A stretch of 21,810 bases of DNA from Planctomycetota bacterium (lineage in GTDB: Bacteria; Planctomycetota; Phycisphaerae; Sedimentisphaerales; SM23-30): NCBI GenBank assembly GCA_029573975.1, contig JAKQBU010000045.1, positions 1-21,810 of the forward strand, in the 5' to 3' direction. The position numbers and the translations under genes were made by a program. Shown here in pieces: positions 9,404 to 19,326 of this stretch (position 1 is the first letter of the stretch; every line of letters begins with the position of its first letter). Under the pieces are notes generated by a model, which saw only the letters and a list, made by a program, of their open reading frames with translations, ran no database searches and was not told where the DNA came from.

Positions 9404-9654
9404 AGCCCGCATTTCTCACGGGGTTTTGACGAATTTATTGATAACTCCCATGCTTCAGAATGTCGTATGTACCATTTTTCGGTTCATCGGCTTCGACCGT
9501 CTGTTTTCAGCGCGAATGTTTGTCCGCCTTCGAGGCCGCAGGAGCTATCTTCCGCAGGCATATAAGTATATATGTTGAGGACAGATAGCGACGAGAACGA
9601 AGAAGGCGGGCAAAAAGACCGCTGAAAATCGAAAGTCCGTAAGAAATGCGGGCT
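9404..9654. repeat. Imperfect palindromic element with 18-bp terminal inverted repeats (copy B)
   Basis: AGCCCGCATTTCTCACGG at 9404-9421 recurs inverted at 9654-9637 with 17 of 18 bases equal. Inside, TTTTCAGCG (9504-9512) recurs inverted at 9628-9620, TTTGTCCGCCTTC in the left arm recurs as TTTGCCCGCCTTC in the right arm, GCTATCT occurs in both arms, and the centre near 9566 reads CATATA...TATATG. The left arm has about 75 extra bases. The right arm (9560-9655) is the part shared with the repeat at 222-312. Size, inverted ends and lack of a protein suggest a MITE-like or REP/BIME-like element. Two overlapping minus-strand reading frames cross it but look fortuitous. Confidence 0.65.
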
Positions 9655-9668
9655 AGGAAACAGGGCTG

Positions 9669-9708
9669 AAAAATAAAGCCGACAGACATAAGGAGGCAAT
9701 CTGTCGGC
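9669..9708 (-). terminator. Intrinsic terminator of the small-RNA candidate
   Basis: A 9-bp GC-rich perfect stem (9708-9700 with 9686-9678) is followed at once by TTTATTTTT (9677-9669). This is the best Rho-independent terminator in the window. No gene lies upstream on this strand before the divergent proS promoter, which is why it points to a short independent transcript. Confidence 0.7.
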
Positions 9709-9737
9709 GGAAGCGCCGCGAAAGGAATAAACGCTTC
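9669..9737 (-). ncRNA. Candidate ~69-nt small RNA with 16S-tail-like loop
   Basis: The predicted transcript starts with G at 9737, 7 nt past the -10 box, exactly at the first base of a hairpin: GAAGCG (9737-9732) pairs with CGCTTC (9715-9710) around a pyrimidine-rich loop containing UUCCUUUC. A second hairpin has a 9-bp perfect stem, GCCGACAGA (9708-9700) with TCTGTCGGC (9686-9678), and a 13-nt loop containing CCUCCUUA. A TTTATTTTT tail follows directly, so the second hairpin is also the intrinsic terminator. No start codon or ORF lies inside. A small RNA that pairs with Shine-Dalgarno sequences is an inference; expression is unknown. Confidence 0.5.
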
Positions 9738-9743
9738 TATTCA

Positions 9744-9773
9744 ATCATACAATTTTTTGACATGTAAAGTCAA
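9744..9773 (-). promoter_or_regulatory. Promoter of the small-RNA candidate
   Basis: On the minus strand TTGACT (9773-9768) and TATGAT (9749-9744) are separated by 18 nt. The -35 region overlaps an inverted repeat, TTTGAC-N7-GTCAAA (9756-9774), which could be a regulator site. Confidence 0.5.
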
Positions 9774-9892
9774 ATGTATATGCAACTCCTGGGGTGTTAC
9801 CGATGTTTTTTTCCAATTTTATGGATGCTAAATGCGGAATATAGGGGATATTACGAAAATATGGAGCGCGATAAAAATAACGAATATAACCA

Positions 9893-17820: not shown

Positions 17821-19326
17821 TCAGTTGTGCAACGATCTGTCCAGCAGTTTGAGTTTGCCTAAATAATAGCGTTTATGGCCGTCCTGATTGTCATACGGAA
17901 GTTCGAAGACCGGGGTGGCATCCTCTTTTCCCACCGAAACAAATAAATCGTATTCGCCGGGTTTTACGTTTTGGAAAAAAAACGGTTCACCATCCCCCAG
18001 CCAAGGAGCCACATTCAGTTTGGAATTAATGGTTTTTGGGCTTGCCTTTCCCGCCGGCCCGGCTTCCAGTTCTTTCACATCAAAGTGGTGATCAATATAT
18101 GTGAACACGATTCCCCCCTTATCATCCTTGAGCGTAAAGGCCGCATACCCGCCCGGATAACAGGGTGCAACCCCGGCGTTATACCAGGCGGTTTGTATCT
18201 CGAATTCCTGCCCGAGCTTTACTTTCTTTGGCCAGGTAGCCTCCTGCACGCATAGACGATAGCCCATACGACGGTTGATCTTATCGATCGCATCCCGATT
18301 TTCATCCAGGAGTATTCTCGGCCACCAGTGGATGGACATGTAGCTGGCGTGGTAGTCTTCAACGGCCCGGAGCCAGAGATCCTTGCTCCAGGCTTTTCGG
18401 ATCAGAGAGGATCCATAGTGCTCGTGTTCCAGGACGACCGGAAAATGCGGCCAGAATTTCTGCGCCAGTTCGGCATGATACCAGCTTCGAGGCGGCGGCT
18501 GAACCATAATGCTGTCATCGCGAAGGGTAATTCCCTTGGCAAGGGCATAATCAGTAATCGGAAATGCATCGCCCGGTTGGTCATGGCCGACAAAATCATC
18601 TATGATACACAGACGTGTTTTTGCAAAATGTTTGAGGTGAAGATCAATATGTACTTTTTGGATACGGTAAAGAAGATCGTCTGGCACCTGGCTGCTCATA
18701 TGGGTATGGCCTTCGCCCCACAATCCGAAGGTGCCGATATCAATAAAGGCGACGTTGGGATTGCCGTCGTAGCGGTCGGCCATCTCGGTCAGGAAGGCGT
18801 CGAGCTTGTCGAGATAGACCGGGTCGCTGAAATCCGGATCCCAGAGGGGGCCGTTCTCCACCCGGCCCATGCCGAGTTCGTAAAAATACCCTTTGGCACC
18901 GGCCTCTTTGACCCATTGGGGCGTGGCGTAACGCATCCAGCTTTCGGAAGTGGTCACTCGCAGCGCAATCTGTTTGCCTTTATCGATCCATCGCTGGGCA
19001 GGGGTATCGAGCAGGGACCAGTTGTATTGCCCTTCCTTCGGCTCGAGAAAAGCCCAGGGCACCCGCAAATACACTGTCGATAATCCCGGAAAATCGTCCA
19101 AGGTGTCCGAAGGTTCCAGCCGGGAGCCGTAATTGGTTATGATGTTGGAATAGTAATGCATCGTCCAGCCCATGTCCGGATTGACCAGGGCCTGGCCATT
19201 ATCTACCGGCCGGACGGTGACTGTATCCTCGCCCGCAACCGGCACGGCCATACTAATTAGTACGGCCAGGGCCGGCATCAGCCCGGCAAATACCTTTCGT
19301 CCCGATTTCCATCGCTTGCTGCTCAT
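17821..19326 (-). CDS. Secreted DUF4832-type protein with TIM-barrel-like domain
   Basis: 501-aa exported protein. A basic N-terminus (MSSKRWKSGRK) and a hydrophobic stretch ending near VPVAGE form a Sec signal peptide. The first ~330 residues resemble the glycoside-hydrolase-like barrel found before DUF4832, with NPDMGWTMHYYSN, STVYLRVPWAFLEPKEGQYNWSLLDTPAQRWIDKGKQIALRV, NVAFIDIGTFGLWGEGH and PVVLEHEHYGSS. The C-terminal ~150 residues form a beta-rich DUF4832 part (NAGVAPCYPGGYAAFTLKD, GEYDLFVSVG). Several Glu residues could be catalytic, but no family motif lets me assign a reaction or substrate. AAAGGAACTAC precedes the ATG. It lies about 50 nt downstream of the TolC-like gene on the same strand, a gap containing four GGAT units, so it may be the last gene of that operon. 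Confidence 0.85.
   Translation of the reverse strand: MSSKRWKSGRKVFAGLMPALAVLISMAVPVAGEDTVTVRPVDNGQALVNPDMGWTMHYYSNIITNYGSRLEPSDTLDDFPGLSTVYLRVPWAFLEPKEGQYNWSLLDTPAQRWIDKGKQIALRVTTSESWMRYATPQWVKEAGAKGYFYELGMGRVENGPLWDPDFSDPVYLDKLDAFLTEMADRYDGNPNVAFIDIGTFGLWGEGHTHMSSQVPDDLLYRIQKVHIDLHLKHFAKTRLCIIDDFVGHDQPGDAFPITDYALAKGITLRDDSIMVQPPPRSWYHAELAQKFWPHFPVVLEHEHYGSSLIRKAWSKDLWLRAVEDYHASYMSIHWWPRILLDENRDAIDKINRRMGYRLCVQEATWPKKVKLGQEFEIQTAWYNAGVAPCYPGGYAAFTLKDDKGGIVFTYIDHHFDVKELEAGPAGKASPKTINSKLNVAPWLGDGEPFFFQNVKPGEYDLFVSVGKEDATPVFELPYDNQDGHKRYYLGKLKLLDRSLHN

Follow-up and report, generated by a model that had tools for sequence, protein, structure and literature searches.

The minus strand of a 21,810-nt stretch of a planctomycete contig (hereafter the window, meaning the whole stretch of DNA that was analysed) carries a member of a real small RNA family, which is found in one planctomycete family and has no Rfam match. 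The anatomy of the gene, its conservation among relatives and the complementarity of its product to ribosome sites are directly observed. From these we infer, with a probability of about two in three, that the gene specifies a trans-acting antisense RNA of ~69 nt, which would be transcribed, pair with the mRNAs of a few surface proteins and repress them.

Promoter scan, folding and covariance modelling predict the anatomy of a trans-acting small-RNA gene, with its own promoter, a short structured RNA and an intrinsic terminator. The features are as follows:

9768..9773, minus strand: −35 element TTGACT (promoter scan)
9744..9749, minus strand: −10 element TATGAT, with an 18-nt spacer to the −35 element (promoter scan)
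9669..9737, minus strand: whole predicted small RNA, ~69 nt (fold and covariance model)
9710..9737, minus strand: hairpin 1, 8 pairs, stem GAAGCGUU/GGCGCUUC and 12-nt loop (fold)
9717..9727, minus strand: proposed seed UUCCUUUCGCG in hairpin 1 (loop conservation and complement at ribosome sites)
9720-9727, minus strand: UUCCUUUC in the loop of hairpin 1 (sequence)
9678..9708, minus strand: hairpin 2, terminator stem of 10 pairs with a variable loop (fold)
9689..9696, minus strand: CCUCCUUA in the loop of hairpin 2 (window and nearest relative only)
9669..9677, minus strand: U-rich termination tail UUUAUUUUU (sequence and fold)

The predicted start at 9737 lies 7 bases past the −10 box and is the first base of hairpin 1. 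This promoter (TTGACT-N18-TATGAT) and start had been proposed by an earlier reading of the DNA made from its letters (the sequence-only reading), together with the two hairpins and the U-rich tail; the scan and the fold confirmed them (9737-9710, 9708-9678 and 9677-9669), and the motifs named for the second and first loops, CCUCCUUA and UUCCUUUC, were located at 9696-9689 and 9727-9720. Folding of 81 nt of the minus strand yielded −26.0 kcal/mol, compared with −15.2 ± 2.5 for shuffled sequences (z −4.3; 0/200 as good). A terminator scan with a loop limit of 8 omits hairpin 2. That reading saw no ORF here. A mechanical ORF call does place an overlapping 86-aa frame with a TTG start at 9744-9484 of the minus strand, but we take this frame as spurious because 171 of its 261 bases lie inside an inserted repeat that is absent here in the nearest relative. 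Promoter-like sites were barely above chance (7 in 4 kb; shuffle mean, 4.4 ± 1.8); such a match means little alone, and relatives were therefore examined. The feature is lifted above chance because nine relatives keep the promoter, both hairpins and the U-rich tail. Among 4227 Rfam models, none matched the window at the gathering score and none matched 9600-9800 at E values up to 1.

The nearest relative of the window, genome G001, has 57% of sampled words in common with it. A blastn search of 40 relatives with 141 bases gave matches in nine genomes, all of one planctomycete family (the one in G006 being no copy of the RNA). The covariance search of related genomes that had been suggested was run with a model built from nine sequences and located the RNA in 9/13 genomes of the family, G005 being newly found; across 161 genomes of the order, under stricter filters, the same nine were matched and 0/148 others. 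The model matches all 10 of the members given to it, nine of which were used to build it; counts out of 10 here and below refer to the window and nine relatives. A pattern scan of an 84,980-species genome collection returned 11 stretches, two judged to be chance and nine members, the latter from the same genomes as the covariance-model matches and all MAGs (by record title, Sedimentisphaerales, 5; Phycisphaerae, 3; Planctomycetota, 1). The RNA was not matched in plasmids or, with one pattern, in viral contigs. A looser RNA pattern applied to G002, G004, G006 and G013 had as its sole match the ribosome site of the G006 gene for the LEERIAP protein described below. None of the open-licence papers listed by literature searches describes the RNA, as judged by title or the start of the abstract.

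Several further candidates were rejected. The blastn match L009 in G006 (E 6.9e-4) is without the GAAGCG arm or a U-tailed second hairpin, the similarity of L008 in G010 (E 1.9e-4) stops short of the loop core, and L011 in G001 is a copy of the inserted repeat. The model match L060 in G011 (E 8.6e-4) is, on the opposite strand, the ribosome site of an ATP synthase A-chain gene. L187 (Anaerolineae) sits within an ORF, and no promoter or second hairpin is visible at L190 (Rickettsiales).

Promoter spacing, start and terminator stay constant while the neighbouring genes vary. The −35 element reads TTGAC in 9/10 members (TTGCC in G005), the −10 element follows TANNNT in all 10 (TATGAT, TATAAT, TAAAAT, TAGAAT or TAAAGT), and the spacer is 18 nt in nine (20 nt in G010). 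Hairpin 1 begins at the expected transcription start and in 10/10 members is followed by a second hairpin and a U-rich stretch, the U-tail being weakest in G012. In an alignment fitted to the structure, 97.1% of cells were paired over 14 pairs (0/500 shuffles as high; slid controls, at most 50%) and, with the same fitted alignment, 4/14 pairs were changed on both sides (shuffle mean, 0.5; 0/500 as high). Further pair types were not unusually numerous (100/500 shuffles). One compensating change, G-C to A-U, falls in hairpin 1 of G005.

Within hairpin 1, six of the eight stem pairs and the loop core never vary. All 10 members carry the loop UCCUUUCGCG, an anti-Shine–Dalgarno stretch extended by CGCG: UCCUUUC is present in 10/10 and so is the CGCG that follows it. 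We take UCCUUUC to be the canonical tail of 16S rRNA and the CGCG part to be non-ribosomal; the 16S 3′ end was not found among the loci searched. Hairpin 2 varies freely in sequence, with its stem kept and its loop not. The sequence-only reading had placed the key anti-Shine–Dalgarno copy in this second loop, and had named a kept stem with a lost loop among relatives as the mark of a plain terminator. That is what the relatives show for hairpin 2: CCUCCUUA occurs in 2/10 members (window and G001), and because the stem is kept while the loop motif is in two only, hairpin 2 can be assigned as the terminator; the constraint lies on hairpin 1, which would hold the working loop. A short C/U-rich run, identified by eye in the hairpin 2 loop of all 10 members, may provide a weak second seed.

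Unrelated genes share, at their ribosome sites, the complement of the hairpin 1 loop, (C)GCGAAAGGA(G): they encode an OmpA-like lipoprotein, a large protein that we call LEERIAP and a TolC-like outer-membrane efflux protein (OEP). The pattern CGCGAAAGGA-N3-10-ATG has 38 sites in the 13 family genomes against 5 for the reversed pattern, a contrast that includes the ordinary Shine–Dalgarno signal, and genes were identified behind 30 of the 38. The pattern stands before the OmpA-like gene (Pfam OmpA) in G001, G002, G003 and G007, before the LEERIAP gene in G002, G007, G010 and G012 and also G006, and before the efflux gene (Pfam OEP) in G012 and G013 and also G002; further sites, each in a single genome, precede genes named by eye as ClpX, PdxJ, aldolase and AqpZ-like. 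G007, which is 99% complete, has only two such sites, at the OmpA-like and LEERIAP genes.

Reading of start regions gave GCGAAAGGA at 6/7 readable LEERIAP genes (exception, G009) and GCGAAAGG at 5/6 OEP genes (exception, G007), counts that leave out the LEERIAP gene of G005 and the OEP start regions of 5/11 closer orthologs. Part of this recurrence is selection, because the gene families were picked through pattern hits; outside the picking hits, the site is present in 3/4 OmpA-like genes with GAAAGG, 1/2 LEERIAP genes and 2/3 OEP genes. A single-genome candidate target is the ATP synthase A-chain gene of G011, the ribosome site of which (L060, L064 and L094; G011:C53, 646-668) is complementary over 17 bases with no mismatch; the match takes in part of the RNA stem and was seen in G011 only.

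The LEERIAP protein begins MANGLRK or MAKGLRK and bears VEELEERIAP (in G012 the contig end cuts it after VEE); 300 residues of the G007 member had no Pfam match at E 0.01 and no NCBIfam match at E 1. Large proteins with MA(N/K)GLRK and a VEELEERIAP-like stretch form a family at L109, L111, L116, L151-L155 and L157, and this N terminus is a possible export or surface tag of the planctomycete family. At L107 (G002:C114), a Phd/YefM-type antitoxin ORF is preceded by a ribosome site and an N terminus (MANGLRKLI, the first nine residues) that are the same as in the G002 LEERIAP gene; this start may have been duplicated or rearranged.

The OmpA-like protein was matched in 40/40 relatives, and its start region was read in 30 genomes, 13 of the family and 17 others. 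GAAAGG is present in the ribosome site of 8/13 family genomes and 16/17 others; a GC directly before it was found in 7/8 of the former against 0/16 of the latter (Fisher 2.3e-5, kinship ignored), and in 3/4 against 0/16 once the four picking genomes were taken out (Fisher 0.0035, kinship ignored). The ribosome site reads GCGAACGGAG in G013 and CACGAAAGGA in G004; G006, G009, G010 and G012 have other sites. The flanks of the site diverge more than the site itself. Beyond this gene, the comparison was made with a family (f7) in which no genome had a match in the covariance-model search. At sites of the form BBB-GAAAGGA-N8-ATG, GC precedes GAAAGGA in 25/119 family sites compared with 12/150 of the f7 sites listed (Fisher 0.0019, kinship ignored), and in 22/116 family sites against the same f7 sites when three OmpA-like sites are removed (Fisher 0.0069, kinship ignored). 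CGC precedes GAAAGGA at 10 family sites compared with 2 among the f7 sites listed (Fisher 0.0058, kinship ignored).

Duplex energies were ranked for 1011 start regions in a 1.41-Mb sample of G007, the contigs of which were picked to include the OmpA-like and LEERIAP genes. The first four were NuoJ, OmpA-like, an ABC ATPase (named by eye) and LEERIAP, with the fifth weaker by ~4 kcal/mol. When the loop was replaced by 48 controls in which UCCUUUC was retained, the median ranks were 19 and 28 of 1011 for the OmpA-like and LEERIAP genes (best, 1 and 3). The NuoJ-like gene (Pfam Oxidored_q3; L240, G007:C20 near 179185-179201) has GCCGCGAAAGG 16 bases before its start codon. Signal-peptide genes of the sample were not enriched for GCGAAAGG (3/34 versus 4/33 in others), and we therefore claim a few recurrent targets and no general envelope regulon.

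These comparisons bear on an explanation that we consider rather unlikely, in which the RNA is a ribosome or mRNA decoy: its loop would imitate the 16S tail and bind any strong Shine–Dalgarno sequence, damping translation broadly. Such a decoy would fit every GAAAGGA site by way of its presumed 16S tail, and signal-peptide genes in the G007 sample do have stronger ribosome sites overall; however, the CGCG kept in every member adds nothing to anti-Shine–Dalgarno pairing, and the RNA-bearing family has an excess of GC before GAAAGGA, as do particular genes, such as the OmpA-like gene. The sequence-only reading is supported as to a stand-alone small-RNA gene with an anti-Shine–Dalgarno-like loop able to block ribosome sites. 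Selective pairing is more likely than the global repressor or ribosome decoy that it suggested, as particular genes repeatedly show the CGC extension.

A somewhat less probable alternative is that the invariant hairpin 1 serves to bind a protein, either as a sponge or as a bound RNA, and that the complementarity to ribosome sites is secondary. The unvarying stem pairs and loop core speak for it, as pairing alone needs no invariant stem, but a protein site does not predict that complementarity to the loop should recur at unrelated gene families.

The genes around the RNA suggest a common origin of the locus and bear on a further alternative. In 7/10 members, including G005, an ogt gene faces the RNA gene (confirmed with Pfam in the window, G003 and G010 and identified by eye in the others), and a PTS EIIA gene precedes it in three (Pfam-checked in G007); descent from one locus is likely because the order ptsN–RNA–ogt is common to G005 and G010. 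The proS neighbour that had been pointed out lies upstream of the RNA gene in the window and G001 only, within the stretches listed, and its position is incidental. The direction of ogt, towards hairpin 2, and the terminator character of that hairpin would suit an intergenic terminator or bidirectional terminator lacking any function as an RNA, but we regard this as very improbable: in every member the terminator is directly preceded by a dedicated promoter and the invariant hairpin 1, and no ogt is listed alongside in G007, G008 and G011. Equally improbable is a plus-strand product serving as a decoy with AAGGAGG and GAAAGGA loops for a GGA-binding protein such as CsrA, for although the plus strand folds too (z −3.2) and its loop in the window has AAGGAGG, the conserved promoter and U-rich tail belong to the minus strand in members and the GGA in the hairpin 2 loop is, by eye, not kept.

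We propose that the antisense RNA would act as follows. Transcription would begin at the foot of hairpin 1, from a housekeeping-type promoter, and stop at hairpin 2 and its U-rich tail. Hairpin 1 would display the fixed loop (C/U)UCCUUUCGCG, which could pair over ~10–12 bases with (C)GCGAAAGGA(G) at selected ribosome sites, chiefly those of the OmpA-like lipoprotein, the LEERIAP protein (presumably located at the surface) and the TolC-like outer-membrane efflux protein. This pairing would cover the Shine–Dalgarno sequence and lower translation; repression is the probable sign of regulation because of the position of the sites.

The strongest point against the antisense reading is that G002 and G013, of one genus, carry several target sites and the RNA was not found there. 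These assemblies are 87% and 62% complete, respectively; the RNA may have changed or may fall in gaps of the assemblies, or else something other than the RNA may account for the sites. G009, G010 and G012 have the RNA but an OmpA-like ribosome site without the complement, and G006, in which the RNA was not found, nevertheless has the complement at its LEERIAP gene. The proteins at duplex ranks 1 and 3 in G007, NuoJ and the ABC ATPase, are not surface proteins.

More tentatively, at somewhat less than even odds, the RNA may be a family-specific regulator of the planctomycete surface, in which one loop would coordinate an OmpA-like lipoprotein that anchors to peptidoglycan, the LEERIAP protein and an outer-membrane channel. 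It would have arisen separately from the sigmaE RNAs known in Proteobacteria and Fusobacteriota, and the target ribosome sites of the RNA-bearing family would have gained GC(G). If true, envelope control in Planctomycetota would have a non-coding arm.

MicA, RybB and OmrA/B depend on Hfq, pair through a seed at the 5′ end and are under sigmaE or EnvZ–OmpR control, whereas the planctomycete RNA would have its seed in a hairpin loop and has a housekeeping-like promoter. TTGAC and TANNNT separated by 18 nt are, judged by sequence only, of the housekeeping type, unlike the promoters of sigmaE-type RNAs. MicA and RybB repress outer-membrane proteins and share OmpA as a target (PMC11005410), and OmrA/B likewise act in outer-membrane protein repression (PMC9029176). 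Outside Proteobacteria, abundant envelope proteins are repressed through C-rich seeds by the sigmaE-dependent small RNAs FoxI and FoxJ (the latter ~156 nt long) of Fusobacterium nucleatum, a species described as lacking Hfq and ProQ (PMC11005410). The planctomycete RNA is like MicA, RybB, FoxI and FoxJ in its complementarity to start regions of envelope mRNAs, which is not seen in every genome; it is set apart from FoxI and FoxJ, by description, in its length of ~69 nt, its housekeeping-type promoter and its mixed, longer seed.

Closest in form are the cuckoo RNAs of Alphaproteobacteria (alpha-r14, NfeR1), which are described as having an anti-Shine–Dalgarno sequence in unpaired parts of hairpins, a sigma-70-type promoter, independence of Hfq and three hairpins, each with CCUCCUCCC and with varied stems; as a measured case, NfeR1 silences ntrB by pairing at the translation start region (PMC10746234). 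Like these, the planctomycete RNA exposes an anti-Shine–Dalgarno seed, UCCUUUC, in the hairpin 1 loop of all members. Unlike them, it has two hairpins, the loops of which are UCCUUUCGCG and variable, with one seed hairpin and a nearly invariant stem, and it comes from a different phylum and has no Rfam match. Small-RNA regulation is hardly described in Planctomycetota: a table in a 2022 survey gives 8 distinct annotated small RNAs for the PVC group versus 345 for Proteobacteria (PMC9029176). For the family described here, the putative seed is defined, the host range is narrow and candidate targets, most of them at the cell surface, can be named; these are testable by reporters without growing the host. 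If the antisense reading is right, short-RNA repression of envelope proteins would extend to one more distant phylum, with the target ribosome sites changed alongside.

Other elements lie close to the RNA gene. Just past its terminator in the window is a repeat of ~250 bases (9404-9654) with 26-nt inverted ends that are 85% complementary; it is absent there in G001, which has a 90% identical copy elsewhere (L011, 1261-1513), and it looks like a small non-autonomous transposable element. Shortly past the terminator in 5/10 members (L002, L004, L005, L006 and L007, by eye) is a palindrome like ACCGACYGGTCGGT, placed between the 3′ ends of the RNA and ogt in G003, G009 and G012, which we presume to resemble a TetR-type operator. 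Further along the window, at 17821-19326, a gene for a DUF4832 protein with a glycosyl hydrolase 42-like stretch lies near an O-antigen-ligase-like gene and a glycosyltransferase gene.
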